A program made the position numbers and the translations under genes. From Streptomyces resistomycificus (lineage in GTDB: Bacteria; Actinomycetota; Actinomycetes; Streptomycetales; Streptomycetaceae), in contig NZ_KQ948990.1 of NCBI RefSeq assembly GCF_001514265.1, forward strand, positions 320,320-384,319: DNA of 64,000 nt, given 5' to 3'. Under the pieces are notes generated by a model. It searched no databases. It had not been told where the DNA came from and worked only from the letters and a program-made list of their open reading frames with translations. This document shows, piece after piece, positions 11,842-49,531 of the stretch (the first letter of the stretch is position 1; each line of letters starts with the position of its first letter).

Positions 11842-12876
11842 TCAGGTCTTCTTACGGGCCGTCATGGCGCGCTGGATCAGGATGAACGCGCACAGCAGCA
11901 CACCGGTGGCGATCTTCGTCCACCAGGAGCTGAGCGTGCCCTCGAACTGGATGATGCTCTTGATCAGGCCCAGGACGAGGACGCCGAAGAGGGTGCCCAG
12001 GACATAGCCGGAGCCGCCCGTCAGCAGCGTGCCGCCGATGACGACCGCGGCGATCGCGTCGAGTTCCATACCGGTCGCGTGCAGCGGGTCACCGGACTGG
12101 ATGTACAGGGTGAAGAGCAGGCCGGCCAGGGCCGAGCAGAAGCCGCTCACCGTGTACACGGCGATCTTGGTGCCGCCCTGCGGCAGGCCCATCAGCATGG
12201 CCGACTGCTCGTTGCCGCCGATGGCGTACACCCGCCGTCCGAAGCGCGTGTAGTGCAGGACGTAGAACGCCACGGCGAGGACGACGAGCGCGACGATGGC
12301 GCCGACCGACAGGAAGCCCATCCCCAGCGACGCCTGCGCCTGGGCCATGCTGCTCACCGTGGAGTCGTCGATGGCGATCGACTCCTTGCTGATGACCAGG
12401 CACAGTCCGCGGAAGAGGAAGAGGCCGGCGAGGGTCACGATGAAGGGCTGGATCTCGAAGTTGTGGATCACATAGCCCATCAGGAAGCCGCCGAAGGCTC
12501 CCACGCCCAGCGCGATGGGGATGACGACCAGGATGGGCAGGCCCTGCTCCTCCACCAGCCATGCGGTGAGCATGGTCGTGAAGCCGATCACGGAGCCGAC
12601 GGACAGGTCGATGCCGCCGGACAGGATGACGAAGGTGGCGCCGACGGCGGCGACCAGCAGGTAGCCGTTGTCGATGAAGAGGTTGAGGAAGACCTGCGGT
12701 TCGCCGAAACCGTAGTTCTGGTAGCGGCTCAGGCCCGCGATGTACATCACGAGGAAGAGCGAGGCGGTCACCAGGACCGGCAGGCGCCGGTCACCGAGCA
12801 GCCGGGCGGCCTTGGACGTCGTGGTCGAAGGGGTACGACTGCCCTGGGTCTTGGGGGTCTGGGTGGTCGCGCTCAT
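11842..12876 (-). CDS. yjfF: Sugar ABC transporter permease YjfF-type
   Basis: A 344-residue carbohydrate-uptake-2 permease with about eight to ten membrane helices. It carries the family signature 'VGATFVILSGGIDLSVGSVIG' and closes with 'FEGTLSSWWTKIATGVLLCA', very like E. coli YjfF of the galactofuranose importer. The start ATG 12876 has GGAGGTG upstream and overlaps the stop of the preceding permease by one base (TGATG). It forms a membrane channel with the YtfT-type partner. The galactofuranose substrate is taken from the E. coli family and not shown here. Confidence 0.85.
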   Translation of the reverse strand: MSATTQTPKTQGSRTPSTTTSKAARLLGDRRLPVLVTASLFLVMYIAGLSRYQNYGFGEPQVFLNLFIDNGYLLVAAVGATFVILSGGIDLSVGSVIGFTTMLTAWLVEEQGLPILVVIPIALGVGAFGGFLMGYVIHNFEIQPFIVTLAGLFLFRGLCLVISKESIAIDDSTVSSMAQAQASLGMGFLSVGAIVALVVLAVAFYVLHYTRFGRRVYAIGGNEQSAMLMGLPQGGTKIAVYTVSGFCSALAGLLFTLYIQSGDPLHATGMELDAIAAVVIGGTLLTGGSGYVLGTLFGVLVLGLIKSIIQFEGTLSSWWTKIATGVLLCAFILIQRAMTARKKT

Positions 12877-13985
12877 CACGACACCTCCATCTTGGGGGCT
12901 GCCGCGGTGGTCGGGGTGGTGTCCGCCGGGGTGGCGGCCGGCGTGCCGCTTCCCTTCGCGCCGGATCCGGAGCCGAACCTGGCGCCGAACACCTTGGCGC
13001 GGAACTTCGGGGACTGCAGCAGGCAGACGACGATGACGACGGCCGCCTTGAAGACCAGGTTGGTCTGGGTCGGCACCCCGATGGTGTAGATCGTGGTGGT
13101 CAGGGTCTGGATGACGAGGGCGCCCACCACCGTGCCGCCGATGGAGAACCGGCCGCCCAGCAGCGAGGTGCCGCCGATCACCACGGCGAGGATCGCGTCG
13201 AGCTCGATCCACAGACCGGCGTTGTTGCCGTCCGCGGCCGAGGTGTTGGAGCTGATCATCAGGCCCGCGATACCGGCGCACAGGGCGCAGAACACGTACA
13301 CCATGATCTTGATGCGCAGGGACCTGATGCCGACCAGGCGGCTGGCCTCGGCGTTGCCGCCGACCGACTCGACCAGCAGGCCCAGCGCGGTGCGGCGGGT
13401 CAGTGCCACGGTGACGGCCACGACCGCGGCCACCACGAAGATGGAGAAGGGCAGCGTCAGCCAGTAGCCGCCGCCGATCAGCTTGTACGGCTCGCTGTTG
13501 ATGGTGATGATCTGGCCGTCGGTGATCAGCTGGGCGACACCGCGCCCGGCGACCATGATGATCAGCGTGGCGATGATCGGCTGGATGCCCATCCGGGCGA
13601 CCAGGAAGCCGTTCCACAGACCGCAGACCACCGCGGCCAGCAGTCCGATGCCCATGGCCAGCAGCACCGCGGACAGGGCGCTCTGGTCGGCCTGGTCGCT
13701 GATGTACGAACAGGTCAGGGCGCCGGTGATGGCGACCACGGCGCCGACGGAGAGGTCGATGCCGCCGGTGGCGATGACCAGGGTCATGCCCACGGCCACC
13801 AGGATGAGCGGCGAGCCGAACAGCACGATCGAGACGAGGCTGCCGTAGAGGTGGCCGTCCGTCATCCGGATCGAGAAGAAGTCAGGGGTGAAGGGAACGT
13901 TGATCAGCAGCAGGGCGACCAGCACGGCTACCGGCCAGAACAGGTGATGCTGCGTCAGCGCTCGCCATCGGGGAGTGGTGGTCAC
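12876..13985 (-). CDS. ytfT: Sugar ABC transporter permease YtfT-type
   Basis: A 369-residue permease starting at GTG 13985 and overlapping the upstream ATPase stop (GTGA). The permease signature 'VGMTLVIATGGIDLSVGAVV' sits near residue 80, followed by 'QPIIATLIIMVAGRGVAQLI' and 'ELDAILAVVIGGTSLLGG', all characteristic of ribose/galactofuranose-type permeases. The C-terminal ~45 residues are a Ser/Ala/Thr-rich tail absent from E. coli YtfT. It pairs with the YjfF-type permease encoded immediately downstream. Confidence 0.85.
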   Translation of the reverse strand: MTTTPRWRALTQHHLFWPVAVLVALLLINVPFTPDFFSIRMTDGHLYGSLVSIVLFGSPLILVAVGMTLVIATGGIDLSVGAVVAITGALTCSYISDQADQSALSAVLLAMGIGLLAAVVCGLWNGFLVARMGIQPIIATLIIMVAGRGVAQLITDGQIITINSEPYKLIGGGYWLTLPFSIFVVAAVVAVTVALTRRTALGLLVESVGGNAEASRLVGIRSLRIKIMVYVFCALCAGIAGLMISSNTSAADGNNAGLWIELDAILAVVIGGTSLLGGRFSIGGTVVGALVIQTLTTTIYTIGVPTQTNLVFKAAVVIVVCLLQSPKFRAKVFGARFGSGSGAKGSGTPAATPADTTPTTAAAPKMEVS

Positions 13986-15520
13986 TGGTGCTCTCCGCTC
14001 GCGATGGTCTCCAGGATCCGGGTGGGCGTGATCTCGGGGCCGTTGGCGATCTGCGCCACCAGCTTGCGGTCGCGCAGCACGCCGATGGTGTGACTGAGCC
14101 GGAGGACCTCCTCCAGCTCGGCCGCGATGTACAGCACTGCCATACCTTCCTCGGAGAGCGAGACCACTAGTTTCTGGATCTCCGCCTTCGCGCCCACGTC
14201 GATGCCGCGCGTCGGTTCGTCCAGGATCAGCAGCTTCGGCTGGGTGATGAGCCAGCGGGCGAGCAGCACCTTCTGCTGGTTGCCGCCGCTGAGCTGGCCG
14301 ACGCGGGCCTCCGGGTTGGCGGGACGGATGTCCAGCGCCTTGATGTACTTGGCGACGAGTTCGTCGCGCTGGGCGGCCGGGATGGGCCGGGTCCAGCCGC
14401 GGGACGCCTGCAGGGCGAGGATGATGTTCTCCCGCACCGTCAGGTCGGGTACCAGGCCCTCGGTCTTGCGGTTCTCCGAGCAGAACGCGACGCCGGCGGC
14501 GATCGCGTCGTTCGGGGCGCTCATCGAGACCTGTTTGCCGCCGATGGTGACCTTGCCGCTGTCGGGCTGGTCGGCGCCGAAGAGCAGCCGGGCGAGTTCG
14601 GTGCGGCCGGAGCCGAGCAGACCGGCGAGGCCGAGGACCTCGCCCTTCTTGATGTCCAGGTCGAAGGGGGCGACGCCGCCGGTCCTGCCGAGGCCGTCCG
14701 CCTGGAGCAGGCTCTCGCCGACGTCGGCGTGCAGCTGGTGCTCGTGGAGCTCCTCCAGCTGGTCCATCGCCTTGCCGATCATGAGCTGGATCAGTCCGAC
14801 CTGGTCGAGTTCGCTGACCAGGTGTTCGCCGACCAGGGTGCCGTTGCGCAGCACGGTCATGCGGTCGCAGATCTCGTAGATCTGGTCGAGGAAGTGCGAG
14901 ACGAACAGGATCGCGACGCCCTCGTCCCTGAGCTGCCGCATCAGGCGGAACAGTTCGAGGACTTCGTCGCGGTCGAGGCTGGACGTCGGCTCGTCCAGGA
15001 CCAGCACCTTGGTGCCGCCTCCCGCGCCGTCGCTGTCGCCGGTGCCGACCGACCGTACGATCGCGACCAGTTGCTGCACGGCCAGCGGGTACGAGGACAG
15101 GGGCGCGGTGACGTCGATGTCGAGGCCGAGCCGGTCGACCAGCTCCGCCGCCTCCTTGCGCATGCGCTTCCACTGGATGCGGCCCGCGCGGGTGGGTTCA
15201 CGTCCGATGAAGATGTTCTCCGCCACCGACAGGTTGGGGCAGAGATTCACCTCCTGGTAGACCGTGCTGATGCCGGCCTGCTGCGCCTGCAGCGGGCTGC
15301 CGATCCGCACGGACTTCCCGTCGAGGGTGATCGTTCCGCCGTCCAGCGAGTAGACGCCGGTCAGCACCTTGATCAGGGTGGATTTTCCGGCACCGTTCTC
15401 GCCCATCAGGGCGTGGATCTCACCGGGGAAAAGCCGGAAGTCGACACCCGACAGAGCCCGTACCCCCGGAAACTCCTTGACTATGCCCGTCATCTCCAGG
15501 ACGGGCAGCGGCTCTGCCAT
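13982..15520 (-). CDS. ytfR: Sugar ABC transporter ATPase YtfR-type (two nucleotide-binding domains)
   Basis: A 512-residue fused double ATPase typical of carbohydrate-uptake-2 importers. Domain one has Walker A '[10 protein letters not shown]', Walker B 'VLVLDEPTSSLD' and a short Gly-rich insertion 'GTGDSDGAGGGTK' before Walker B. Domain two has the degenerate 'GLLGSGRTEL' P-loop, signature '[14 protein letters not shown]' and '[13 protein letters not shown]'. The start ATG 15520 has GAGGAG upstream. It powers uptake through the two permeases encoded just downstream, which it overlaps by four bases. Confidence 0.9.
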   Translation of the reverse strand: MAEPLPVLEMTGIVKEFPGVRALSGVDFRLFPGEIHALMGENGAGKSTLIKVLTGVYSLDGGTITLDGKSVRIGSPLQAQQAGISTVYQEVNLCPNLSVAENIFIGREPTRAGRIQWKRMRKEAAELVDRLGLDIDVTAPLSSYPLAVQQLVAIVRSVGTGDSDGAGGGTKVLVLDEPTSSLDRDEVLELFRLMRQLRDEGVAILFVSHFLDQIYEICDRMTVLRNGTLVGEHLVSELDQVGLIQLMIGKAMDQLEELHEHQLHADVGESLLQADGLGRTGGVAPFDLDIKKGEVLGLAGLLGSGRTELARLLFGADQPDSGKVTIGGKQVSMSAPNDAIAAGVAFCSENRKTEGLVPDLTVRENIILALQASRGWTRPIPAAQRDELVAKYIKALDIRPANPEARVGQLSGGNQQKVLLARWLITQPKLLILDEPTRGIDVGAKAEIQKLVVSLSEEGMAVLYIAAELEEVLRLSHTIGVLRDRKLVAQIANGPEITPTRILETIASGEHQ

Positions 15521-15555
15521 GGCAGCGCTCCTCATCGATTTCGTTCAGGCCCGCA

Positions 15556-15608
15556 GGGAGCCCCCTTGACAGCCCCTCAGCTGAGGGGTCGGTCGGGCGG
15601 AGGCTCCC
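15556..15608 (-). promoter_or_regulatory. Intercistronic hairpin between ytfQ and ytfR
   Basis: The 107-bp gap between the binding-protein stop and the ATPase start holds a perfect palindrome CCCCTCAGCTGAGGGG (15573-15588) nested inside a weaker outer pair (GGGAGCC 15556-15562 with GGCTCCC 15602-15608). No U-run follows. Such elements often stabilise the upstream binding-protein mRNA or partly stop transcription so that the binding protein is made in excess. Confidence 0.55.
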
Positions 15609-15627
15609 TGCCGGTGGCTGCGGTCGG

Positions 15628-16635
15628 TCAGTACTTGCGGGTGGGGAGCGCGGCCTTGGCCTGGTCCTGCATGAAGTCGCTCTCCTTGGTCTTGATCCAG
15701 CGCTCGACCGTCTCGCCGTCCTTGACCTTCTGCACGACCTCCATCAGCTGGGGGCCGAGCAGCGGGTTGCACTCGACGATGGCGTTGATCTTGCCCTCGG
15801 ACATCGCGATGAAGCCGTCCTTCACGCCGTCGACCGTGACGATCAGGATGTCCTTGCCGGGCTTCTTGCCGGCCGCCTCGATGGCCTGGATGGCGCCGAT
15901 GCCCATGTCGTCGTTGTGCGCGAACAGCACGTCGATGTCCGGGTTGGACTGCAGGAAGGCCGCCATGACCTGCTTGCCGCCGGCGCGGGTGAAGTCACCG
16001 GTCTGGCTGACGACGATCTTCCAGTCGTCGGCGTGGTCGGCGTCCATGACCTCCTTGAAGCCCTTGGCGCGCTCGATCGCGGGGGCGGCACCGGTGGTGC
16101 CCTCCAGCTGTGCGATCTTCACGGGACCCTTGTGACCGGCCTTCTCCAGGACCTTCTCCAGGATCTTGGCGGCACGCCGGCCCTCGTCCGTGAAGTCCGA
16201 GCCGACCAGGGTCACGAACAGGGACTCGTCGGAGGTCTCGACGGAGCGGTCGGTGAGGACCACGGGGATCTTCTTGGCCTTGGCCTCCTTGAGCACCGCG
16301 TCCCAGCCGGTGACGACCACCGGCGAGAAGGCTATGACGTCCACGCCCTGGGTGATGTAGCTGCGGATCGCGGAGATCTGGTTCTCCTGCTTCTGCTGCG
16401 CGTCGGAGAACTTGAGGGTGTAGCCGGCCTCCTTGGCCGCCTCCTTCACCGAGTCGGTGTTGGCGCTGCGCCAGCCGCTCTCCGAGCCGACCTGGGAGAA
16501 GCCGAGGACGAGCTTCTTGGAACCGCCGCTGCCGGAGGTGGAGGAGGAGCTGTCGTCCTCCTTGGCGCAGGCCGCCAGGCCGGTCGCAGCCGCCACGCCG
16601 ACCGCCGCGGTGAGGAAGTTCCGTCTGTTGAGCAT
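15628..16635 (-). CDS. ytfQ: Sugar ABC transporter substrate-binding lipoprotein YtfQ-type
   Basis: A 335-residue periplasmic-binding-protein-family lipoprotein. The signal has a twin-Arg motif ('LNRRNFLTAAVG') and lipobox 'LAAC' (Cys ~22), followed by a Ser/Gly linker. The mature part matches the YtfQ pattern closely: 'GFSQVGSESGWR', 'DAQQKQENQISAIRSYITQG', 'FSPVVVTGWDAVLKEAK', 'FAHNDDMGIGAIQAIEAAGK'. E. coli YtfQ binds galactofuranose. The start ATG 16635 has AAGGAG upstream. It is the first gene of the operon; a TGTTCGAAAT motif at 16721 lies in its promoter region. Confidence 0.88.
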   Translation of the reverse strand: MLNRRNFLTAAVGVAAATGLAACAKEDDSSSSTSGSGGSKKLVLGFSQVGSESGWRSANTDSVKEAAKEAGYTLKFSDAQQKQENQISAIRSYITQGVDVIAFSPVVVTGWDAVLKEAKAKKIPVVLTDRSVETSDESLFVTLVGSDFTDEGRRAAKILEKVLEKAGHKGPVKIAQLEGTTGAAPAIERAKGFKEVMDADHADDWKIVVSQTGDFTRAGGKQVMAAFLQSNPDIDVLFAHNDDMGIGAIQAIEAAGKKPGKDILIVTVDGVKDGFIAMSEGKINAIVECNPLLGPQLMEVVQKVKDGETVERWIKTKESDFMQDQAKAALPTRKY

Positions 16636-16720
16636 GTGTCTTCTCCTTTGAAGAGCCGGTCCGGGATGGACCACTGGTACTCGATGGGACCGGCCGCACT
16701 GCGTCCAGCCTGTCGATCAT

Positions 16721-16738
16721 TGTTCGAAATGTCGGCCG
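16721..16738 (-). promoter_or_regulatory. TGTTCGAAAT operator-like motif upstream of ytfQ
   Basis: TGTTCGAAAT followed by GTCGG occurs 86 bp upstream of the ytfQ start. It matches 14 of 18 positions of the palindrome TGTTCGAAATTTCGAACA that recurs at other sugar genes in the window. Confidence 0.4.
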
Positions 16739-16788: not shown

Positions 16789-17835
16789 TCAGCCGGGCGC
16801 GGCCCCCGATTGAGGGGCGTACGGGAACGTACTGGCCCGGACGACGAGTTGGGGTTCGATGGCCACCCGGGACGTCCCGGAGGGGGTCCGGCCCTCGATG
16901 AGATCCAGCAGCAGGGCGATGCTCCGCTTGCCCACCGTCGCGAAGTCCTGCCGGACGGTGGTGAGCGGCGGAGCGAAGAACTCCGACTCCGGGATGTCGT
17001 CGAAGCCGACCACCGCGACGTCCTGGGGAGTGCGCACTCCCGCCTCACGCAGAGCCCGCAACACCCCCAACGCCATCTGGTCGTTGGCGACGAAGACGGC
17101 GGTCAGGCCCCGGCCCACCCAGCCGGCCAGTTCCTGGCCCGCACGGTAACCCGACAACGGACTCCAGTCACCCCCCAGCGGGAGCGGCGGTTGCACACCC
17201 GCCTCCTCCAGGGTCGCCCGCCAGCCGTCGGTCCGGTCCACCGCCTCCTGCCAGTCCTCGGGTCCGGCGAGATGCCAGACCGTGCGGTGACCCGAGGCCA
17301 GCAGATGGCCGGTGGCCAGCCGCGCACCCAGGAACTGGTCCACGTTGACGCTGGGGATCTCCACGCCTGACCCGGTTCCCACGGCCACCACCGGGAAGGG
17401 ATGGCGCAGTTCGGCGAGGGCCTCGACCGCCGACCGCTGCGGGGCGAGGGCGATCACCCCCTCCACGCCACCCTGGCTGAGGTGGGCCAGGGCCTCGGAC
17501 AGTGTCTCGACCGTCAGTTCGCGCAGACTGACCGTCGAGACGACGTACCCCTCGGCACGAGCGGCCTCCTCGAGCGCGAACAGCGTACTGGCGGGCCCGT
17601 AGAGCGTGGTGTTGGAGGCGACCACACCCAGGGTCCGGGTGCGCCGGGTCGCCAGGGCCCGGGCGGAGGAGTTGCGGCGGTAGCCCATCTCCTCGATCGC
17701 GTGCAGCACCTTGGCCCGTGTCTCGTCCCGCACATTGGGGTGGTCCCCCAGTACGCGGGACACGGTCTGGTGGGACACGCCGGCCATGCGTGCCACGTCG
17801 GCCATGGTGGGCGGCCGAAGCTGTGTGTAGGTCAC
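16789..17835 (-). CDS. LacI family transcriptional regulator
   Basis: A 348-residue LacI-type repressor from GTG 17835 (GGGAGGAG upstream). Residues ~11-60 form the LacI headpiece: 'TMADVARMAGVSHQTVSRVL' plus 'RDETRAKVLHAIEEMGYRRN'. The remainder is a sugar-binding domain ('GVVASNTTLYGPASTLFALE', 'FVANDQMALGVLRAL', 'VAVVGFDDIPESEFFAPPLT'). It lies between the ytf-type operon (same strand) and the dehydratase operon (opposite strand), with a LacI-like operator at 18046, so it most likely controls one or both in response to an imported sugar. Confidence 0.9.
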   Translation of the reverse strand: MTYTQLRPPTMADVARMAGVSHQTVSRVLGDHPNVRDETRAKVLHAIEEMGYRRNSSARALATRRTRTLGVVASNTTLYGPASTLFALEEAARAEGYVVSTVSLRELTVETLSEALAHLSQGGVEGVIALAPQRSAVEALAELRHPFPVVAVGTGSGVEIPSVNVDQFLGARLATGHLLASGHRTVWHLAGPEDWQEAVDRTDGWRATLEEAGVQPPLPLGGDWSPLSGYRAGQELAGWVGRGLTAVFVANDQMALGVLRALREAGVRTPQDVAVVGFDDIPESEFFAPPLTTVRQDFATVGKRSIALLLDLIEGRTPSGTSRVAIEPQLVVRASTFPYAPQSGAAPG

Positions 17836-18045
17836 GGCCGCTCCTCCCTGGTGATCGTCTGCCGATAGGCCCTGTGGGGCGGATAAGTCCTGAGGTCTGG
17901 GCGGGCGGGTCCGCACCGTCGGCTTCACCCCGGGGTACCGGAGAGCCTCATGGCACCGGACGGGAGGACGAGTGGGAGCACAGCCGGCATGACGCTCGTA
18001 CCTCCTTGGGTGCCGTGGGGCGACAACTGATGGATGCGGAGGTCA

Positions 18046-18061
18046 TTGTGAGCGCTAACAA
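18046..18061. promoter_or_regulatory. LacI-type operator
   Basis: TTGTGAGCGCTAACAA is a 16-bp near-perfect palindrome around AGCGCT (one mismatched pair), the classic LacI-family half-site pattern. It lies in the 449-bp gap between the divergent lacI-type and dehydratase genes; the rest of that gap holds a promoter, a repeated motif and no convincing gene. Confidence 0.75.
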
Positions 18062-18224: not shown

Positions 18225-18233
18225 CGCGACAGC

Positions 18234-18262
18234 ATTTCGAACAAGTGCCGAAATTTCGAACA
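18234..18262 (+). promoter_or_regulatory. Repeated ATTTCGAACA motif in the dehydratase leader
   Basis: ATTTCGAACA occurs at 18234-18243 and again at 18253-18262, 19 bp apart, just after the predicted start of transcription. The second copy extends to GAAATTTCGAACA (18250-18262), the exact reverse complement of the 13 bases TGTTCGAAATTTC found upstream of the iclR-type gene at 49356. Confidence 0.6.
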
Positions 18263-18284: not shown

Positions 18285-19442
18285 GTGCGCATCACGGGAA
18301 TCAGCACGCACGTGGTAGGGACGCCGTGGCGGAACCTGACCTACGTCCAGGTGCACACCGACGAGGGACTCACCGGAGTCGGCGAGACCCGCATGCTGGG
18401 CCACACCGACGCTCTGCTCGGCTATCTGCGTGAGGCGGAGGCCAACCACATCCTCGGGTCCGACCCGTTCGCTGTCGAGGATCTGGCCCGCCGCATGAAG
18501 TACGGCGACTACGGCCGGGCCGGCGAGATCGTGATGTCCGGCATCGCCGTCATCGAGATGGCCTGCTTGGACATCAAGGGCAAGGCTCTCGGCGTGCCGG
18601 TCTGGCAGTTGCTGGGCGGCAAGGTCACCGACAAGGTCAAGGCGTACGCCAACGGCTGGTACACGACCGAGCGGACGCCGGAGGCCTACCACAAGGCCGC
18701 CCAAGGGGTCATGGAGCGCGGGTACAAGGCGCTCAAGATCGACCCCTTCGGCACCGGGCACTACGAGCTCGACCACCAGCAGAGCCTGTACGCCGTCTCC
18801 CTCATCGAGGCGGTGCGTGACGCCATCGGGCCGGACGCCGAGCTGATGCTGGAGATGCACGGCCGCTTCTCCCCCTCCACCGCCGTCCGACTGGCGAAGG
18901 ACCTCGCGCCCTTCAAGCCCGCGTGGCTGGAGGAGCCGGTCCCGCCGGAGAACCTGAAGGCCCTGGAGAAGGTCGCCGCCAAGGTGGACATCCCGGTCGC
19001 GACCGGTGAGCGGATTCACGACCGCATCGAGTTCCGGGAGCTCTTCGAGAGCCAGGCCGTCGACATCATCCAGCCGGACGTCGGCCACATCGGCGGCATC
19101 TGGGAGACCCGGAAGCTGGCGGCCACCGCCGAGACCCACTACATGCTGGTGGCTCCGCACAACGTGGGCGGCCCGGTGCTCACCGCCGCCTCCCTCCAGG
19201 TCGGGTTCAGCTCGCCGAACTTCAAGATCCTCGAGCACTTCAACGACTTCGCGGACGCGGAGATCAAGAAGGTCGTCAAGGGCGCGCCCGAGGTGATCGA
19301 CGGGTACTTCCACCTCTCCGACGCGCCCGGTCTCGGTGTCGAGCTTGACGTCGACGCCGCCGCCGAGTTCCCGCAGCAGCAGGCGCGCTTCGACCTGTGG
19401 GCCGAGGGCTGGGAGCAGCGCAAGCCCAAGGGCGCCAAGTGA
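18285..19442 (+). CDS. Enolase-superfamily sugar-acid dehydratase (galactonate-dehydratase-like)
   Basis: A 385-residue enolase-superfamily enzyme starting at GTG 18285 (AGGGAG upstream). It has the capping N-terminus ('RITGISTHVVGTPWRNLTYV') and barrel signatures 'GYKALKIDPFG', 'LMLEMHGRF', 'WLEEPVPPEN', 'ATGERIHDR', 'IIQPDVGHIGGIWE' and 'APHNVGGP'. Likely metal ligands are Glu190, Glu216 and Glu242, with His192 and His292 as acid/base. As I recall E. coli D-galactonate dehydratase, the spacing is the same, but its first ligand is Asp. The role is probably dehydration of an aldonic acid to a 2-keto-3-deoxy acid; galactonate is only the closest guess. It is coupled to the next gene (GTGA). 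Confidence 0.75.
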   Translation: MRITGISTHVVGTPWRNLTYVQVHTDEGLTGVGETRMLGHTDALLGYLREAEANHILGSDPFAVEDLARRMKYGDYGRAGEIVMSGIAVIEMACLDIKGKALGVPVWQLLGGKVTDKVKAYANGWYTTERTPEAYHKAAQGVMERGYKALKIDPFGTGHYELDHQQSLYAVSLIEAVRDAIGPDAELMLEMHGRFSPSTAVRLAKDLAPFKPAWLEEPVPPENLKALEKVAAKVDIPVATGERIHDRIEFRELFESQAVDIIQPDVGHIGGIWETRKLAATAETHYMLVAPHNVGGPVLTAASLQVGFSSPNFKILEHFNDFADAEIKKVVKGAPEVIDGYFHLSDAPGLGVELDVDAAAEFPQQQARFDLWAEGWEQRKPKGAK

Positions 19443-20443
19443 GCACGGCCGTCGTCGTCGAGGCACCGGGCGAACACCGGCTGGTCTCGCACGAGCCCAG
19501 CCGGCCGGAGGCCGGTGAGGCGCTGGTACGCGTCCACGCGGTCGGTATCTGCGGCAGCGACCGCGAGCTGTACCAGGGCAACCGGCCCGAGGGGTACGTC
19601 CGCTACCCGCTGACGCCCGGCCACGAGTGGTCCGGGACGGTCGAGGCGGTCGGCGCGGGCGTCCCCGAGGCGCTCGTCGGCCGGAAGGTCGTGGGCGAGG
19701 GCTTTCGCAACTGCCAGGTCTGCGACCGCTGTCACGCGGGCGAGACCACCCTGTGCACGGCGGGGTACGAGGAGACCGGGTTCACCCAGCCGGGTGCGAT
19801 GGCCACCACCCTCACCCTGCCCGCCCGGTTGCTGCACGCCCTGCCGGACGACGCCGACCTGACGGCGGCGGCCCTGCTGGAGCCGGCGGCCTGCATCGCG
19901 GCCGCCGCTATCAAGGCGAACGCGCGGCCGGGTGAGCGGGTAGCCGTGGTCGGCACCGGCACCCTCGGGATGTTCGCGATCCAGTTCCTGAAGGCGGGCT
20001 CCCCGGCGGAGCTGCTGGTCGTCGGCACCCGCAACGACCGCGAGGCGCTGTCGAGGCAGTTCGGCGCCACCGGCTTCCGCACCAAGGACCAGGAACTCCC
20101 CGACGACTTCGACGTCGTCATCGAGACCGCCGGGTCCGCCTCCGCCGCGCGCACCGCCGCCTCCCTGCTCCGGCGCGGCGGACGCCTGGTCCTGACGGGC
20201 ATCCCGGCGTCGGGCGCCGAGGGTCTCGACCCGACGGACCTGGTCGTGCGGCAGCTGGAGGTGCACACCGTCTTCGGGGCCGCTCCGGACGCCTGGGCGC
20301 ACACCGTGCGGGTGTTCGGGGCCGGGCTGCTGGACCCGCTGCCGCTGGTCACGCACGAACTGCCGCTCGACGGGTTCGCCGAGGCGATCGAGCTGGTGGG
20401 GTCCGGCGATCCGAAGGTGGGCAAGGTACTGCTCCGCCCCTAG
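19439..20443 (+). CDS. Zinc-dependent alcohol dehydrogenase (MDR family)
   Basis: A 334-residue zinc medium-chain dehydrogenase. Catalytic zinc motifs 'GICGSDRELY' and 'GHEWSG' and the structural zinc lobe with four Cys ('NCQVCDRCHAGETTLC') are intact, and the nucleotide fold is 'VAVVGTGTLGMFAIQFLKAG'. Such enzymes oxidise polyols or sugars with NAD(P). The start GTG 19439 overlaps the dehydratase stop as GTGA, so the two are translationally coupled and presumably act on the same sugar, with the dehydrogenase giving the lactone or keto product. The exact substrate cannot be read from sequence. Confidence 0.85.
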   Translation: MSTAVVVEAPGEHRLVSHEPSRPEAGEALVRVHAVGICGSDRELYQGNRPEGYVRYPLTPGHEWSGTVEAVGAGVPEALVGRKVVGEGFRNCQVCDRCHAGETTLCTAGYEETGFTQPGAMATTLTLPARLLHALPDDADLTAAALLEPAACIAAAAIKANARPGERVAVVGTGTLGMFAIQFLKAGSPAELLVVGTRNDREALSRQFGATGFRTKDQELPDDFDVVIETAGSASAARTAASLLRRGGRLVLTGIPASGAEGLDPTDLVVRQLEVHTVFGAAPDAWAHTVRVFGAGLLDPLPLVTHELPLDGFAEAIELVGSGDPKVGKVLLRP

Positions 20444-20523: not shown

Positions 20524-20541
20524 TGTCCGAAATATCGAACA
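20524..20541. promoter_or_regulatory. 18-bp palindromic operator candidate
   Basis: TGTCCGAAATATCGAACA differs at two positions from the perfect palindrome TGTTCGAAATTTCGAACA and sits immediately before the ribosome site of the gene at 20555. It matches the motif found before the dehydratase, iclR and other sugar genes. Confidence 0.6.
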
Positions 20542-20554
20542 CGAAGGACAGCTT

Positions 20555-21526
20555 GTGACGACCGACGCTTCCGCCACGGCAGCCCGCAGACCAGGTGAGC
20601 CGGCGCTCACCACGCTGGGCCTGGGCGCGCCCGCCCTCGACCCCGCCGACGCCTCACCGCACACCTTCCCCGGCGGCGGCCGCTGGCGCACCGAGATTCC
20701 CTCGTGCGAGGGTCCCGAAGCGCTGGCCGTCGTCCTCAAGGAAGCCTCGAAGCTCGACGTGCCGATCCACCGGATCAGCCAGGGCAGCGGTGTGTGGATG
20801 CTGACCGACGCCGAGATCACCGAGATGGTCGACGCGACGGGCGAGCGGGACATCGAGCTCTGCCTGTTCACCGGCCCTCGCGGCACCTGGGACATCGGCG
20901 GCTCGACCCGTACCGACTCGCGCGGCGGCGGCCTGCGCGCCCGCGGCCACGACGCGGTCGCCGGGTGTGTCGAAGACGCCGTGCGCGCGACGGAGTTGGG
21001 CGTCAAGTGCCTCCTCGTCGCCGACGAGGGTGTGCTGTGGACGCTGCACCGGGCGCGCCTGGCCGGGATCATCCCGGCGGACACGACCCTCAAGGTGAGC
21101 GCCCTGATCGGTCCGGTCAACCCGGCCGCGTACGCCGTATACGAGAACCTGGGCGGCGACTCGGTCAACGTGCCCAGCGACCTGACCCTCGACCACCTCA
21201 CCGAGATCCGGCGGGTCTCCGCCGCCCCCATGGACATGTACATCGAGGCCCCCGACGATCTCGGCGGCTATGTGCGGATGTACGAGGTCGCCGAGCTGAT
21301 CCGGCGCGGCGCACCGCTCTACCTGAAGTTCGGCCTGTCGAAGGCCCCGGGGATCTACCCCTACGGCCATCACATGCGGGACCTGACCCTGTCCACGGCC
21401 CGGGAGCGGGTGCGGCGCGGCCGGCTCGCCCTGGACCTGCTGGCACGGCACGGAGTGGGCGACGACATGGCCCCGCTCGGCTCCCGGCTGCCGGGCACGC
21501 TGAAGCGGTTCGGAACTCCCTCATAA
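20555..21526 (+). CDS. Unassigned protein, possible TIM-barrel enzyme, in the sugar locus
   Basis: A 323-residue protein from GTG 20555 (AAGGA upstream). I do not recognise it with certainty; alternating beta/alpha segments ('[20 protein letters not shown]', '[11 protein letters not shown]', '[15 protein letters not shown]', '[18 protein letters not shown]', '[20 protein letters not shown]', '[14 protein letters not shown]', '[10 protein letters not shown]') suggest a TIM barrel, perhaps of the peptidase-U32-like or aldolase-like type. There is no signal peptide. It lies between the dehydratase operon and a sugar ABC importer and carries its own operator-like palindrome, so a role in sugar-acid metabolism, possibly after the dehydratase, is inferred. 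Confidence 0.5.
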
Positions 21527-21668
21527 CGTTCCGGACAACGCCCCTTCACAAAAGCAGACGCGGCCACACACAATCCCACACATCTTCTCGGTCGCATCGC
21601 GCATCGCACGACGGACGGCACCCGCACCGCCAGACCGAGCCAGCCCCACCACGTCAAGGATGATGATC

Positions 21669-22775
21669 ATGCGTACTCGCCGAGCCGCACTCACCGCCAT
21701 AGCCGGCGCCGCCTCCCTCGCCCTCACCCTGTCCGCGTGCGGTCAGAGCGGTGAGGGTGGCAGCGAGCAGGAGACCGGCAGCGCCAAGGGAGGCACCATC
21801 GGCATCGCGATGCCGACCAAGTCGTCCGAGCGCTGGATCGCCGACGGCAACAACGTGGTCAAGGACCTCAAGTCCAAGGGCTACGAGACCAAGCTGGTCT
21901 TCGGCGAGGACGACCCCGAGAACCAGGTCTCGCAGATCGAGAACCTGATCACCCAGGGCGTCAAGGCACTGATCGTCGCGGCGATCGACAACAAGTCGCT
22001 GAACGGCGTGCTCCAGCAGGCCAAGGAGGCGAACATCCCGGTCATCGCCTACGACCGTCTGATCCTCGGCACGGAGAACGTCGACTACTACGCGTCCTTC
22101 GACAACGAGAAGGTCGGCGAGCTCCAGGCCAGCTACATCGTCGACAAGCTCGGCCTGAAGGACGGCAAGGGCCCGTTCAACATCGAGCTCTTCGCCGGCT
22201 CCAACGACGACAACAACACCAAGTACTTCTTCAACGGCGCGATGAGCGTCCTGCAGCCGTACATCGACAGCAAGAAGCTCGTCGTCAAGTCCGGTCAGAC
22301 CAAGCTCACCCAGGTCACCACCCTGCGCTGGGACGGCGCCACCGCCCAGCGCCGCATGGACGACATCCTGACCGGCTCCTACAAGAGCGGCCGGGTGGAC
22401 GCGGTGCTCTCGCCGTACGACGGCATCTCCATCGGCATCCTGTCGGCGCTGAAGTCGGACGGCTACGGCTCCGGAAGCAAGAAGCTCCCGGTCCTCACCG
22501 GCCAGGACGCCGAGCTCGCCTCGGTGAAGTCGATCATCGCGGGCCAGCAGACGATGACCGTCTACAAGGACACCCGTGAGCTGGCCAAGGTCGCCTCGAA
22601 CATGGTCGACGCGTCGCTGAACGGCAAGAAGCCGGAGATCAACGACGACAAGACGTACGACAACGGTTCGAAGGTCATCCCCGCCTACCTGCTGAAGCCG
22701 GTGAGCGTGGACAAGACCAACTACAAGGAGATCCTGGTCGACGGCGGCTACTACACCGAGGGTGACCTCAAGTAA
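21669..22775 (+). CDS. Sugar ABC transporter substrate-binding lipoprotein (ChvE/GguE type)
   Basis: A 368-residue lipoprotein: signal '[19 protein letters not shown]' with lipobox Cys at ~22, then a D-xylose/multiple-sugar binding fold ('[20 protein letters not shown]', '[20 protein letters not shown]', '[19 protein letters not shown]', '[20 protein letters not shown]'). This matches ChvE-like binding proteins for arabinose, galactose or glucose. Of several nearby ATGs I chose 21669 because AAGGA is spaced eight bases from it. It heads a three-gene importer operon with the ATPase and permease downstream. Confidence 0.88.
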
Positions 22776-22807
22776 CCGTCGCCACCTACTGATTGGAAGG
22801 CACGACC

Positions 22808-24358
22808 ATGGCGGGACCCGTCCTGGAAATGCGCTCGATCGTCAAGACCTTTCCCGGTGTCAAAGCGCTCTCGGACGTCACGCTGACCGTCCGGCAGGGC
22901 GAGGTCCACGCCATCTGCGGTGAGAACGGCGCCGGGAAGTCCACCTTGATGAAGGTGCTCTCCGGCGTCCATCCGCACGGCACGTACGAGGGCGAGATCC
23001 TCTTCGACGGAGAGGTCTGCGAGTTCAAGGACATCCGGGCGAGCGAGGCGCACGGCATCGTCATCATCCACCAGGAGCTGGCCCTGGTGCCGTTCCTGTC
23101 GCTCGCGGAGAACATCTTCCTCGGCAACGAGCACGCCACCCGCGGGCTCATCAACTGGAACGACACCCTCAAGCACGCCAGTGAGCTGCTGCGCCGGGTC
23201 GGTCTCAGCGACCACCCGGAGACCCGCGTCGCCGACATCGGCGTGGGCAAGCAGCAGCTGGTGGAGATCGCCAAGGCGCTGTCGAAGAAGGTGAAGCTGC
23301 TCATCCTGGACGAGCCGACCGCGGCTCTGAACGACGAGGACAGCGGCAAACTCCTCGATCTCATCCTGGAGTTGAAGAAGCAGGGCATCACCTCGATCAT
23401 CATCTCCCACAAGCTCAACGAGATCCGCACGGTCGCCGACTCGGTGACGATCATCCGCGACGGGCAGTCCATCGAGACCCTCGACGTGAAGGCCGCGGAG
23501 ACCACCGAGGACCGGATCATCTCCGGCATGGTCGGCCGTGACCTCGACCACCGCTTCCCCGAGCGCACCGCGTACGAGGGGGAGGTGGACGCGGCCCCCG
23601 CGCTGGAGATCCGCGACTGGACCGTGCACCACCCGATCGACCAGCAGCGCAAGGTGGTCGACGACGTGTCGATCCACGTGCGGCGCGGGGAGATCGTCGG
23701 CATCGCGGGCCTGATGGGCGCCGGCCGCACCGAACTGGCGATGAGCGTCTTCGGCCGCGCCTACGGCCGGCACGCGGACGGCACGGTCCTCAAGGACGGC
23801 AAGGAGATCCGTACGAAGACCGTCGCCGAGGCGGTCAAGCACGGGATCGCGTACGTCACCGAGGACCGCAAGCACTACGGCCTGAACCTCATCGACACCA
23901 TCAACCGCAACATCTCGCTGAGCGCGCTCGGCAAGGTGTCCAAGCGCGGGATCGTCGACGAGCACGAGGAGCGCAAGGTCGCCGAGGGCTTCCGCAAGTC
24001 CATGAACATCAAGGCGCCGACCGTCTTCGAGCCGGTGGGCAAGCTGTCCGGCGGCAACCAGCAGAAGGTCGTCCTCAGCAAGTGGATCTTCGCGGGTCCC
24101 GAGGTGCTGATCCTGGACGAGCCCACGCGCGGTATCGACGTGGGCGCCAAGTACGAGATCTACACGGTCATCGACCAGTTGGCGGCCCAGGGCAAGGCGG
24201 TCGTCTTCATCTCCTCCGAGCTGCCGGAACTGCTCGGTATGTGCGACCGCATCTACACGATGGCCGCCGGGCGGCTCACGGGCGAGTTCCCGCGGGCCGA
24301 GGCCACGCAGGAAGTGCTGATGCGCCAGATGACGAAGGACAAAGAGGTAACCCGATGA
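22808..24358 (+). CDS. Sugar ABC transporter ATPase (GguA/MmsA type)
   Basis: A 516-residue double-domain ATPase. Domain one: Walker A '[16 protein letters not shown]', '[20 protein letters not shown]'. Domain two: '[16 protein letters not shown]', '[14 protein letters not shown]', '[19 protein letters not shown]'. The sequence '[20 protein letters not shown]' is typical of GguA-like importers. Start ATG 22808 with GGAAGG upstream; it overlaps the permease start as ATGA. It drives uptake of the sugar bound by the upstream lipoprotein. Confidence 0.9.
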
Positions 24359-25596
24359 GCACGGATGTGACCGCCAAGAGCCCGGCGCCTGCGCCGCCCG
24401 GCAAGAGCGGGACGGCCGGCGGCGGCCTGCTCCAGCTGATGCTGGACGGCCTGCGCCGCAACATGCGCCAGTACGGCATGCTGATCGCGCTCGGCCTGAT
24501 CGTCGCGCTCTTCGCCGTCTGGACCGACGGTGACCTGCTGCTGCCGCGCAACGTCTCCAACCTGGTGCTCCAGAACAGCTACGTGCTGATCCTCGCGATC
24601 GGCATGATGCTGGTGATCATCGCGGGCCACATCGACCTGTCGGTCGGTTCACTGACGGCGTTCGTGGGCGCGTTCGCGGCCGTGCTGACCGTGCAGCACA
24701 GTGTGTCCTGGCCGGTCGCCGTGGTCCTGTGTCTGGCGATCGGCGCGGTGGCGGGCTCCGTGCAGGGGTTCTTCATCGCGTATCTCGGCATACCGTCGTT
24801 CATCGTCACCCTCGCGGGCATGCTCGTCTTCCGCGGTCTCACGGAGATCCTGCTGGAGGGCCAGACCCTCGGCCCCTTCCCGGACGGGCTGCAGAAGATC
24901 GGCAACGGCTTCCTGCCCGAGGCCGGCCCGGAGACCAACTACCACAACATCACGCTGCTGCTGGGCCTGGCCCTGCTGGTCTTCGTGATCCTCCAGGAGG
25001 TCCGCGACCGCAAGCGCCAGCAGGAGTTCTCGCTGGACGTGCTGCCGCGCAACATCTTCCTGCTCAAGCTCGTCTCCATCGGCTCCGCGGTGCTCGTCGT
25101 CACCCTGCTGCTCGCCAGCTACAAGGGTGCGCCGATCATCCTGCTGATCCTCGGCGCGCTGGTCGTCGGCTACGGCTACGTGATGCGCAACGCGGTGTTC
25201 GGCCGTCACATCTACGCGATCGGCGGCAACCTGCCGGCGGCGAAGCTGTCCGGCGTGAAGGACAAGAAGGTCACCTTCCTGGTCTTCCTGAACATGGGCG
25301 TGCTCGCGGCACTGGCGGGTCTGGCGATCGCCGCCCGTCTGAACGCGGCCTCCCCGAAGGCGGGCCTGAACTACGAACTCGAGGCCATCGCCTCGGCGTT
25401 CATCGGTGGCGCGTCCATGAGCGGCGGCGTCGGAACCGTCCTCGGCGCGATCATCGGCGGTCTCGTCCTCGGTGTGCTGAACAACGGCATGAACCTCCTC
25501 AGCGTCGGCTCCGACTGGCAGCAGGTCATCAAGGGCCTGGCCCTGCTGGCCGCGGTCGGGTTCGACGTGTGGAACAAGCGCAAGTCCGGTTCGTAG
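24355..25596 (+). CDS. Sugar ABC transporter permease (GguB type)
   Basis: A 413-residue permease with ~10 membrane helices and a 30-residue Ala/Pro-rich cytoplasmic N-terminus. The signature '[20 protein letters not shown]' has His where many relatives have Gly, as in the GguB/XylH group. '[20 protein letters not shown]' and '[20 protein letters not shown]' complete the family pattern. It overlaps the ATPase gene by four bases and is followed by a strong terminator, so it ends the operon. Confidence 0.9.
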
Positions 25597-25672: not shown

Positions 25673-26719
25673 GTGAAGTCCCTCTTCGGCAAGCTCGCCG
25701 ACGGCACGAAGGTCCACAGCTGGGCGCTGGACAACGGCGGCACCCGACTGAAGGTCCTCTCCTACGGCGGCATCGTCCAGTCCCTGGAGATCCCGGACCG
25801 GGACGGCCGTTACGCCAACGTCTCGCTGGGCTTCGACACCATCGAGGACTACGTCGAGGGGAGCCCGTACTTCGGCGCGCTGATCGGCCGCTACGGCAAC
25901 CGCGTCGCCGAGGGCCGGTTCACCCTGGACGGCGAGAGCCATGAGGTGAACGTCAACGACGGCGCCAACAGCCTGCACGGCGGCGCCCAGGGCTTCGACA
26001 CGCGCGTGTGGGACGTCGAGCCGTTCACCGAGGGTTCCGACGTCGGCCTGTACCTGTACTGCACCAGCGCCGACGGCGAGATGGGCTACCCCGGCACGCT
26101 CAGGACGAAGGTGACGTACACCCTCACCCGGCAGGGCGACTGGCGCGTCGACTACGAGGCCACCACCGACAAGGCCACCGTCGTCAACCTCACCAGCCAC
26201 GTCTACTGGAACCTCGCCGGCGAGGACAGCGGCACGATCTACGACCACGAGCTGGAGATCGCGGCCTCCCGCTACACGCCGGTCGACTCGGGACTGATCC
26301 CCACGGGCGAGCTCGCCGAGGTCACTGGCACCCCCTTCGACTTCCGTCGCGCCAAGACGGTCGGCGAGGACCTCCGGGGCGCCCACCGGCAGTTGCTGTA
26401 CGCCAAGGGCTTCGACCACAACTGGGTGCTCGACAAGGGCGTCACGCGCGAGCCTGAGCACGTGGCGACGCTCCGGGACCCCTCCTCGGGCCGCACGATG
26501 AGGATCGCGACGACCGAGCCGGGTCTGCAGTTCTACTCCGGCAACTTCCTCGACGGCACCCTCGTCGGCAGCGGTGGCACCATCTACCGCCAGGGCGACG
26601 CCCTCTGCCTGGAGACGCAGCACTACCCCGACTCCCCGAACCACCCGTCGTTCCCCTCGACGGTGCTGCGGCCCGGGCAGGCGTACCGCACGACGACGGT
26701 GCACTCGTTCCAGGCGTGA
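25673..26719 (+). CDS. galM: Aldose 1-epimerase (mutarotase)
   Basis: A 348-residue GalM-family enzyme that interconverts alpha and beta anomers of aldoses such as galactose, glucose and L-arabinose. Family motifs are present: 'LKVLSYGGIVQSLEIPDRDG', 'IGRYGNRVAEGRFTLDGE', 'SLHGGAQGFDTRVW' (with the catalytic His region), 'NLTSHVYWNLAGE' and 'CLETQHYPDSPNHPSFPSTV', which contains the catalytic Glu region. GTG start at 25673 with GAGG upstream. It follows the importer terminator by 34 bp and so may use its own weak promoter or read-through. It would prepare incoming sugar for oxidation or phosphorylation. Confidence 0.92.
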   Translation: MKSLFGKLADGTKVHSWALDNGGTRLKVLSYGGIVQSLEIPDRDGRYANVSLGFDTIEDYVEGSPYFGALIGRYGNRVAEGRFTLDGESHEVNVNDGANSLHGGAQGFDTRVWDVEPFTEGSDVGLYLYCTSADGEMGYPGTLRTKVTYTLTRQGDWRVDYEATTDKATVVNLTSHVYWNLAGEDSGTIYDHELEIAASRYTPVDSGLIPTGELAEVTGTPFDFRRAKTVGEDLRGAHRQLLYAKGFDHNWVLDKGVTREPEHVATLRDPSSGRTMRIATTEPGLQFYSGNFLDGTLVGSGGTIYRQGDALCLETQHYPDSPNHPSFPSTVLRPGQAYRTTTVHSFQA

Positions 26720-28631: not shown

Positions 28632-30065
28632 CTACGCCGGGTTGAGCCGCCACTGCTGGCAGTTGTTGCCCAGCCACGACCACTGCCGTACGTCGGCGGC
28701 GTCGGCGGTGGAGCAGTCGGCGACGTCGGCGACCTTGCCGGTGGCCTGGTTCACGATCCGGACGTAACCACTGTCGGTCGCGAGGAACCGGAACCGCTGG
28801 CAGGTGTTGTTCAGCCAGGACCACTGCCGCAGGTCGGCGCCGTCGGCGGACGAGCAGTCGGCGGTGTCGAGCACCTTGCCGGTGGCCACGTTCACCAGTC
28901 GGCTGGTGTCGTCGCCCTGGTCCTCGACACGCCACCGCTGGTTGTTGCCGCCGCTGCAGGCGTACTGCTGGACGTTGGCGCCGTCCGCCGTCGAACTCCC
29001 GGCGACGTCGAGGCACTTGCCGCTGTTGCGGTTGGTGATCGTGTACGTCGTCGAGGCGGTCGAGGGCTCACCCGACGGCCCGGTCATGCTCGCCCCGAGC
29101 CGGGCGGGCGTACCGAAGTTCGGCGTGCCGTCGGAGTTCCAGGTGAGCTTCTGCGCGCGGGCGGTACGGCCGTTGTCGCAGCCGTCGGAGGCGGAGTCGT
29201 TGGCGTGGTAGACGATCCAGTCCTCGGTGCCGTCGGGCGACTTGAAGTGGCCGTGGTGGCCGGGGCCGTAGACACCCGCCGCGTCGTCGCGTTGGAAGAC
29301 CGGCGTCGACTTCTTCGTCCAGGAGGAGGCGGCGAGCGGATCGGAGCCGGTGAGGCTGAGCTGGCCGAGCTTGTAGTCAGGGGTCCAGCACCCGCTGGCC
29401 GAGTAGATCAGGAAGGTCCGTCCGCCGCGCTGGAGGATCTCCGGGCCCTCGTTGACCGTGCCGTTGCGCTCCCAGCTGAAGGTCGGCGTGGAGACGGTGG
29501 AGAAGCCGGTGGCGAGGGTGTACGGGTTGGACATCCGCGCCGCGACCAGGTTCTGCGTCCCGCCGCCGGTCGTGCTGCCGAACAGGTACAGCTGACCGTT
29601 GATCGTGGCGACCGTCGGGTCGAGCATCCAGCCGGAGCCCAGCTGCCCCTTGTAGGTGTACGGACCCATCGGGTCCGAGCCGGTGCTCTCCAGCACGTGC
29701 GAGCGCTGCGTGGGGTTGTAGTCGGAGATGTTCTGCCCGGCGACGTAGTACATGTACCAGCGCCCGTTGAGGAAGTGCATCTCGGGCGCCCAGATGTTGC
29801 AGCACCGGTTCGCCGCGTCGCCCTTCCACACCTGCACGCTGGGCGCGGTGGCCAGCCCTGCCAGGGTGGTGGACTTGCGCATGGTGATGACGTCGGTCCA
29901 ACTCGTCGTCACCATGTAGTAGTTGCCGTTGTGGTACGAGATCCAGGGGTCGGCGCCCTTCTGCGCCTTCACCGGGTTGGCGAACGAGGCCGCACTCGCG
30001 GAGGGCTGTCCTATCGAGAGGGCCAGCAGCAGTGCTGCCAGCAGGGTCAGTATGCGACGGGCCAT
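28632..30065 (-). CDS. Secreted GH43 exo-type arabinofuranosidase with ricin-type lectin (CBM13) domain
   Basis: A 477-residue secreted enzyme. After a signal peptide ending at 'ASAAS', residues ~30-330 form a GH43 five-blade propeller: 'GADPWISYHNGNYYMVTTSW', 'NIWAPEMHFLNGRWYMYY', 'GWMLDPTVATINGQLYLF', 'TVNEGPEILQRGGRTFLIYS' containing the Asp/Asp/Glu catalytic set. The last ~130 residues are a ricin-B/CBM13 lectin with three QxW-like repeats ('NNQRWRVE', 'CQRFRFLA', 'NCQQWRLN'). GH43 enzymes of this subgroup release arabinose from arabino-oligosaccharides. Start ATG 30065 (GGAG upstream) overlaps the preceding gene's end by 19 bp, so both are in one operon. Confidence 0.87.
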   Translation of the reverse strand: MARRILTLLAALLLALSIGQPSASAASFANPVKAQKGADPWISYHNGNYYMVTTSWTDVITMRKSTTLAGLATAPSVQVWKGDAANRCCNIWAPEMHFLNGRWYMYYVAGQNISDYNPTQRSHVLESTGSDPMGPYTYKGQLGSGWMLDPTVATINGQLYLFGSTTGGGTQNLVAARMSNPYTLATGFSTVSTPTFSWERNGTVNEGPEILQRGGRTFLIYSASGCWTPDYKLGQLSLTGSDPLAASSWTKKSTPVFQRDDAAGVYGPGHHGHFKSPDGTEDWIVYHANDSASDGCDNGRTARAQKLTWNSDGTPNFGTPARLGASMTGPSGEPSTASTTYTITNRNSGKCLDVAGSSTADGANVQQYACSGGNNQRWRVEDQGDDTSRLVNVATGKVLDTADCSSADGADLRQWSWLNNTCQRFRFLATDSGYVRIVNQATGKVADVADCSTADAADVRQWSWLGNNCQQWRLNPA

Positions 30066-31030: not shown

Positions 31031-31086
31031 GCGGGGCCTCCTTGCGTGGGGGATACGGTCCGTTCGGTATATCGATCACCGATCAG

Positions 31087-31139
31087 AACTTCGGACGGAC
31101 CGTAGAATCGAACCCCTTGCGCGTCAATGGTTCGCGCAG
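31087..31139 (-). promoter_or_regulatory. Arabinanase promoter module, copy 1
   Basis: On the minus strand TTGACG (31127-31122), 17 bp, then TACGGT (31104-31099) form a housekeeping-like promoter ~70 bp before the GTG at 31030. The block is nearly identical to 43734-43787, including the 19 bases CTTGCGCGTCAATGGTTCG, so both units are probably controlled by one regulator. Confidence 0.8.
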
Positions 31140-39467: not shown

Positions 39468-39556
39468 GCTTTCCTTTCGGGGTTCGGTTTCGTGGGGTCG
39501 GTGGGGGCTGGTCGCCCCCACGCGGCCAGGCCGCACGGTGACGAGCCCCGCGCCCC

Positions 39557-40522: not shown

Positions 40523-40531
40523 CGAAACTCC

Positions 40532-43707: not shown

Positions 43708-43725
43708 TGTTCGATATTCCGAATG
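43708..43725. promoter_or_regulatory. TGTTCGATATTCCGAATG operator-like motif before the arabinan importer
   Basis: This 18-base site just upstream of the binding-protein ribosome site matches the recurring palindrome TGTTCGAAATTTCGAACA at 14 of 18 positions. Its position in the leader suits a repressor. Confidence 0.4.
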
Positions 43726-43733
43726 GTGCCCGT

Positions 43734-43787
43734 AACTTCGAACGGGACCGTAAATTCGAAGCGCTTGCGCGTCAATGGTTCGGGCAG
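43734..43787 (-). promoter_or_regulatory. Arabinan importer promoter module, copy 2
   Basis: On the minus strand TTGACG (43775-43770), 17 bp, TACGGT (43752-43747). Within and after the promoter are two direct repeats TTCGAA-n2-TACGG spaced 18 bp apart, plus the palindrome AAGCGCTT in the spacer. The block is nearly the same as 31087-31139, which drives the other arabinanase unit. Confidence 0.8.
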
Positions 43788-49355: not shown

Positions 49356-49372
49356 TGTTCGAAATTTCAACA
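49356..49372. promoter_or_regulatory. IclR-type operator candidate TGTTCGAAATTTCAACA
   Basis: A 17-base near-palindrome (TGTT-N9-AACA with an AAATT core) 32 bp upstream of the iclR start. Its first 13 bases, TGTTCGAAATTTC, recur exactly on the opposite strand at 18262-18250 in the dehydratase leader. Autoregulation is the simplest reading. Confidence 0.6.
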
Positions 49373-49531
49373 GACGATCGGCATGACGAACACAGGCTAG
49401 CCATAGTGCGTTTACCCGGGCAATGGGCAGGCCAGGTCACTTCCGCCTCATCCGTACAACCTTTCCCCTTCCGAGCGGTCATACCTGTGGACTCCCGTGG
49501 GGGGAGCTCGTCCCGAGCTATGGAGTGCTTG

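Follow-up and report, generated by a model that had tools for sequence, protein, structure and literature searches.

A candidate oxidative L-arabinose pathway spread over two operator-linked loci in Streptomyces resistomycificus

Gene content of the two loci

The window analysed here is a 64 kb stretch of the 9.18 Mb genome (completeness 100) of a soil Streptomyces. All the genes named in the original prediction are present in it. The first locus contains a sugar-acid dehydratase of the MR/MLE group of the enolase superfamily (18285..19442, plus strand), putatively an L-arabinonate dehydratase. Its two domains score above the Pfam gathering thresholds (PF13378, E=1.7e-68, 231 bits; PF02746, 61 bits) and the metal ligands and acid-base residues of the superfamily are conserved. 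Residues E190, H192, E216, E242, D265 and H292 are invariant across the 17 sequences compared. Judged from this alignment, the protein keeps the residues expected for an active member of the superfamily. DgoD and mannonate dehydratase ManD, of the same superfamily, share this kind of active site, with its E-x-H motif region and H-D dyad. The first metal-ligand position is occupied by Glu in 18285, whereas it is Asp in DgoD. Archaeal oxidative pentose pathways (Sulfolobus, Haloferax) also use a pentonate dehydratase of the MR/MLE type. The best NCBIfam model for 18285 is galactonate dehydratase (NF010624), with 287 bits against a curated D-galactonate dehydratase cut-off of 311. The protein falls below every curated NCBIfam cut-off and reaches 118 of 650 bits with the archaeal arabinonate dehydratase model.

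The next gene encodes a medium-chain zinc dehydrogenase (19439..20443, plus strand; PF08240, PF00107, PF16912), a candidate L-arabinose 1-dehydrogenase. In many Streptomyces it is placed between the dehydratase and an orphan protein, here encoded at 20555..21526 (plus strand) and called 20555 below. An importer follows, composed of a ChvE-type multiple monosaccharide binding protein (21660..22775, plus strand; NF040907, 546 bits, cut-off 460), a GguA-type sugar ABC ATPase (22793..24358, plus strand) and a GguB-type permease (24364..25596, plus strand; NF040906, 560 bits, cut-off 450). The ATPase was assigned as the open reading frame between ChvE and GguB, in a conserved order. ChvE and GguB thus pass the equivalog cut-offs of the Agrobacterium ChvE-GguAB importer but, unlike the latter, the Streptomyces copy is embedded in an arabinan regulon. 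An aldose 1-epimerase (mutarotase; 25673..26719, plus strand; PF01263, E=1.5e-91) comes next. It is followed at 26911-28623 by an aminotransferase-like protein whose long tail is rich in Pro, Ala and Met, in an order conserved in several Streptomyces.

On the other side of the dehydratase lie a LacI-family regulator (16789..17928, minus strand; PF00356) and an importer of the YtfQ-YtfR-YtfT-YjfF type, identified by profile matches (11845..16674, minus strand). YtfQ is a sub-threshold member of its NCBIfam family. A second ChvE-like binding protein is encoded elsewhere in the genome (L241:6785-8461, corresponding to C5:366779-368461), with a weak operator, GAGATTTCGAACC, just upstream. Also just upstream of this gene is a fragment, interrupted by a TGA, that shows 37% identity to 20555 over residues 212-292 of the latter. 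The region may be a copy of the operon that arose by duplication and has decayed.

The window also contains two GH43 enzymes of the arabinanase/arabinofuranosidase type (28632..31030, minus strand; PF04616), a GH35 beta-galactosidase (34851) and an ABC importer encoded with a GH43 enzyme and an alpha-L-arabinofuranosidase (37953..43694, minus strand; PF06964). The second locus carries an SMP-30 family lactonase (47706..48554, minus strand; PF08450, 4e-84, 282 bits), a putative L-arabinonolactonase, and an IclR regulator (48551..49324, minus strand; PF01614, PF09339). The best PDB relative of the lactonase is the xylonolactonase of C. crescentus (7PLB, E=4e-48). Lactonase residues align with the metal ligands E18, N101, N146 and D196 of that structure. 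The predicted protein thus has both the SGL domain and the Glu, Asn and Asp ligands of an SMP-30 pentonolactonase.

A shared operator and its regulon

The lactonase lies about 28 kb from the dehydratase and, as originally noted, the two units have an operator in common. The 13-base sequence GAAATTTCGAACA precedes both the dehydratase (18250) and the IclR-lactonase unit (49356, minus strand), without any mismatch. These are the only two exact copies in the 9.18 Mb genome. When up to two mismatches are allowed, the window has six matches versus 0.07 expected. They precede YtfQ, the dehydratase, 20555 (both strands), the ABC importer (43708) and IclR. The original list of marked units was thus right for the dehydratase and the lactonase but incomplete, as YtfQ, 20555 and the 43708 importer have to be added. 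In its wider form, the palindrome resembles TGTTCGAAATWTCGAACA.

The site before YtfQ covers 16721..16738 (minus strand) and that before 20555 is a near-perfect palindrome, TGTCCGAAATATCGAACA (20524..20541, plus strand). Four sites are tandem, with a register of 19 bp. They are located before the dehydratase (18226..18262, plus strand, where the second half-site is 19 bp upstream; 18226/18245), the GH43 pair (31061..31097, minus strand; 31061/31080), the importer with arabinofuranosidase (43708..43744, minus strand; 43708/43727) and the IclR-lactonase unit (49356..49392, minus strand; 49356/49375). The same register is seen again in other species. If no more than one mismatch to a degenerate consensus is allowed, the operator before 20555 is kept in 76 of the 80 other Streptomyces compared, as against 12 of 1600 random stretches.

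Co-inheritance also links the two loci. Among 34 Streptomyces genomes with a real 20555 orthologue, 33 have a lactonase orthologue of at least 62% identity, and the exception has a 48% identical relative 3 kb away. In the 21 genomes that lack 20555, no lactonase exceeds 53% identity and no dehydratase 43%; the counts of both groups are uncorrected for relatedness. The lactonase is found about 20 kb or less from 20555 in 18 of the 34 genomes, and within about 35 kb in six more. In seven loci, the lactonase-IclR pair is divergently adjacent to the dehydratase, dehydrogenase, 20555 and importer genes. Because the lactonase is close to 20555 elsewhere, the 28 kb gap of the window represents one more arrangement of the same gene set. 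The idea of a single oxidative sugar-acid route split over two loci is therefore strongly supported by the co-inheritance, the shared operator and the compact loci.

The compact loci have no LacI gene and have kept the operator, and this points to IclR as the operator reader. The operator also lies before the IclR gene itself. Hence, its most probable owner is the IclR regulator of the lactonase unit (48551) and not, as had been suggested, the LacI protein next to the dehydratase. LacI was rejected as owner of the shared operator in view of the compact loci and of a separate near-palindromic LacI-type site, TTGTGAGCGCTAACAA (18046..18061, plus strand), in the stretch that separates the LacI and dehydratase genes. 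With up to three mismatches allowed, TTGTGAGCGCTAACAA had no other match in the window.

Mapping of the regulon relied on searching the genome for operator patterns. A stricter operator pattern gave 15 matches, versus 2 for a reversed control. Outside the window, A/T-rich sites are located just upstream of a GH127 beta-L-arabinofuranosidase and of a GH43-AbfB enzyme. Another one precedes an AbfB-domain gene followed by a GH27 enzyme, and a weaker site precedes a further GH27 enzyme. The operator-marked genes, including the GH43 pair and the importer with arabinofuranosidase of the window, are an arabinan/arabinose set. The GH35 gene has no shared operator upstream. Separately, chance was judged to explain the matches that precede a UDP-glucose/GDP-mannose dehydrogenase-type gene (C1:124003) or various unrelated genes, as well as G+C-rich operator-like matches, several of them inside genes.

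L-arabinose isomerase AraA (PF02610) was not found in this genome; matches were obtained in 5 of 14 control genomes. As AraA is absent, arabinose feeding would need another route here, although the absence by itself names no route. Of the genomes tested, 27 of the 30 that have 20555 and 17 of the 21 that lack it are without AraA. A strict exclusion between AraA and 20555 was rejected, since few genomes of either group have AraA (3/30 and 4/21, respectively). No ketoglutarate-semialdehyde (KGSA) dehydrogenase is found among the operator-marked genes. The genome has 25 matches to the aldehyde dehydrogenase family, the best being 42% identical to a KGSA dehydrogenase-like protein of a deep lineage, and none was seen at an operator site.

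The orphan protein 20555 and its relatives

Profile searches gave no Pfam or NCBIfam match for 20555, and no PDB sequence match was obtained, even with the family profile. By sequence the protein is neither DHDPS/NAL nor FAH, and no FAH model matched. Known 2-keto-3-deoxy-pentonate dehydratases with structures belong to one or the other of these two families (PMC9795676). The family is widespread, with a match in 269 of 392 Streptomyces searched. AlphaFold2, run on 23 sequences, predicts a (beta/alpha)8 barrel (mean pLDDT 81, pTM 0.83). E47, R73, D157, K180, S182, N189, D209, D227 and K258 are invariant. In the model, E47 (strand 1), R73 (strand 2), K180 and S182 (strand 5) and K258 (strand 8) are at or near strand ends. 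D157 and D209 are predicted to follow strands 4 and 6, and R109, invariant only in one alignment (A2), would follow strand 3. The two invariant lysines of the model would fit, without proving it, Schiff-base chemistry on a 2-keto acid.

Fold searches were performed with Foldseek and VIA-align. The predicted barrel resembles the U32 peptidase Mk0906 (Z 14.9, rmsd 3.0, 188 aligned residues), but CutC reaches an equal score, and RuBisCO-like proteins and class II aldolases come within about one Z unit. Because so many barrel families match at similar strength, the reaction cannot be read from the fold, and an assignment of function from the fold only was rejected. Relatives of 20555 carry the public annotation 'U32 family peptidase', but the Pfam U32 domain was not found in 20555 or in three diverse relatives.

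Outside Streptomyces, homologues are about 34-53% identical to 20555. Matches were obtained in 40 of 396 genomes sampled across the actinobacterial phylum (10 of the 40 being Streptomyces), and homologues also occur in Thermomicrobium, in Nonomuraea and on an Enterobacter plasmid. In many actinobacterial loci and in Thermomicrobium, they adjoin orthologues of the same dehydratase (about 57-61% identity). One further lineage has a 51% identical dehydratase orthologue beside the 20555 homologue. In other deep loci the neighbour is an IlvD/EDD enzyme, for which L-arabinonate dehydratase is the best named equivalog. The surroundings of these deep loci encode metallo-beta-lactamase-fold hydrolases, SDR dehydrogenases, FAH-family proteins and sugar importers. 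Aldehyde dehydrogenases closest to alpha-ketoglutaric semialdehyde dehydrogenase are found there as well. The alternation of two unrelated dehydratase families beside 20555 argues that the products of both would be alike and would be used by 20555. This conserved pairing with aldonate dehydratases agrees with the original placement of the unassigned protein after the dehydratase in the route. The FAH proteins call for caution because FAH enzymes can do the same step: in some deep loci, the FAH-family gene beside 20555 could itself encode the 2-keto-3-deoxy-pentonate dehydratase.

Two distant branches have unrelated surroundings, a point against the route proposed below. In small-genome actinobacteria (1.0-1.4 Mb; four loci), a 33-36% identical relative directly follows a gene judged panB-like from its sequence, which suggests that this branch does another reaction. 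On the Enterobacter plasmid (L120:11914-12852), a 32% identical relative is found amid genes for a phosphotransferase, an aminotransferase, iron-containing redox enzymes and a transporter, perhaps a small-molecule biosynthetic cluster.

Proposed route and alternatives

We consider it reasonably probable that the two loci encode an oxidative, non-phosphorylating L-arabinose pathway, forming one regulon under the IclR protein at 48551. Secreted arabinosidases would free L-arabinose and arabino-oligosaccharides, the importers would bring them in and the mutarotase would equilibrate the sugar anomers. The zinc dehydrogenase 19439 would then oxidise L-arabinose to L-arabinono-lactone, to be opened to L-arabinonate by the SMP-30 lactonase 47706. 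Dehydratase 18285 would convert L-arabinonate into 2-keto-3-deoxy-L-arabinonate. Our best guess is that 20555 acts on the latter compound, and that dehydration to 2-oxoglutarate semialdehyde is likelier than aldol cleavage, which would give pyruvate and glycolaldehyde. The route would be completed by a general aldehyde dehydrogenase encoded elsewhere, and the IclR protein may switch the whole set as a single regulon. We infer these steps, the sugar and the binding of IclR to the operator from computed gene content, regulon content, co-inheritance, operator sites and AraA absence.

The scheme is like the oxidative (Weimberg-type) L-arabinose pathway of Azospirillum brasilense in its step order, with an SMP-30 pentonolactonase, an aldonate dehydratase and a 2-keto-3-deoxy acid step. 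It differs in that the dehydratase belongs to the enolase superfamily instead of IlvD/EDD, and an orphan protein with a predicted TIM barrel stands in for the DHDPS/NAL family member at the step after it (see PMC9795676 for the known enzymes). Also, the regulon here has no KGSA dehydrogenase. A profile scan of the locus found no IlvD/EDD-type L-arabinonate dehydratase; this type occurs only beside the deep relatives. The 2-keto-3-deoxy-D-pentonate dehydratase of Sulfolobus is of the FAH family and also differs from 20555. In our literature search, we found no description of this pathway in Streptomyces.

The original prediction put galactose first. It seems unlikely that the genes serve D-galactose (or D-fucose) by a DeLey-Doudoroff-type path through galactonolactone, galactonate and 2-keto-3-deoxygalactonate, with 20555 as an aldolase. 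ChvE-type importers do carry galactose as well as arabinose (PMC4921485), galactonate dehydratase is the best model for 18285, the window holds a GH35 beta-galactosidase and the operator-marked genes include GH27 enzymes. However, 18285 stays at 287 of the 311 bits needed, arabinosidases dominate the operator set and the GH35 gene is outside it. GH27 enzymes with CBM13 also cover beta-L-arabinopyranosidases. In addition, the deep relatives of 20555 are paired with L-arabinonate-type dehydratases and KGSA-type aldehyde dehydrogenases, the closest solved relative of the lactonase is a pentonolactonase, and AraA is absent from the genome. Galactose was therefore rejected as the main substrate, and the sugar is most probably L-arabinose. 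The original prediction did add 'or a related sugar', and L-arabinose was among the sugars proposed for assay of the dehydrogenase.

It is likewise improbable that the enzymes act promiscuously on several pentoses (D-xylose, L-arabinose, perhaps D-fucose), as an oxidative side route. Proteomic data reported for Streptomyces sp. SirexAA-E, on xylose versus glucose, count in favour of the L-arabinose route and also bear on this point (PMC12772271). Increases are given there for SACTE_1895, annotated as galactonate dehydratase (1.53-fold), the zinc-type dehydrogenase SACTE_1896 (1.77-fold), the sugar-binding protein SACTE_1898 (2.67-fold, and 2.23 on xylan), the ATPase SACTE_1899 (1.79-fold), the permease SACTE_1900 (2.34-fold) and the alpha-N-arabinofuranosidase SACTE_1901 (2.74-fold). 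From gene order and names, SACTE_1895-1901 are presumed to be the same cluster. The values show induction on the pentose xylose, not use of arabinose. The nearest relative of the lactonase is also a xylonolactonase. Against a several-pentose route, the authors of the SirexAA-E paper put xylose itself on an isomerase route (PMC12772271), and the hydrolases under the operator are arabinosidases, not xylanases.

Finally, it is very unlikely that 20555 is a U32-kind protein with another role, a passenger in the operon instead of a 2-keto-3-deoxy acid enzyme, as its relatives' annotation, the rank of Mk0906 among fold matches and the panB-like neighbour of distant relatives might suggest: the Pfam U32 match is missing, CutC and other barrels score as well or nearly so, and 20555 is deeply conserved with aldonate dehydratases and under its own operator.

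Returning to the oxidative L-arabinose pathway, we advance only tentatively, at somewhat less than even chances, its strongest form: that 20555 is a new enzyme family acting on 2-keto-3-deoxy-L-arabinonate, unrelated in sequence to DHDPS/NAL and FAH, and that with the enolase-superfamily L-arabinonate dehydratase it provides most Streptomyces with their main route for L-arabinose. A new enzyme for 2-keto-3-deoxy-pentonates would, if this is true, also help in producing chemicals from the sugars of hemicellulose. Streptomycetes play a major part in the breakdown of plant arabinan, although the textbook arabinose isomerase is missing from most genomes checked. The locus names nearly all the genes needed for testing an alternative to the isomerase route. 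Two seemingly separate loci can be joined through a common operator, and the widespread, unannotated 20555 family gains a defined candidate metabolic step.
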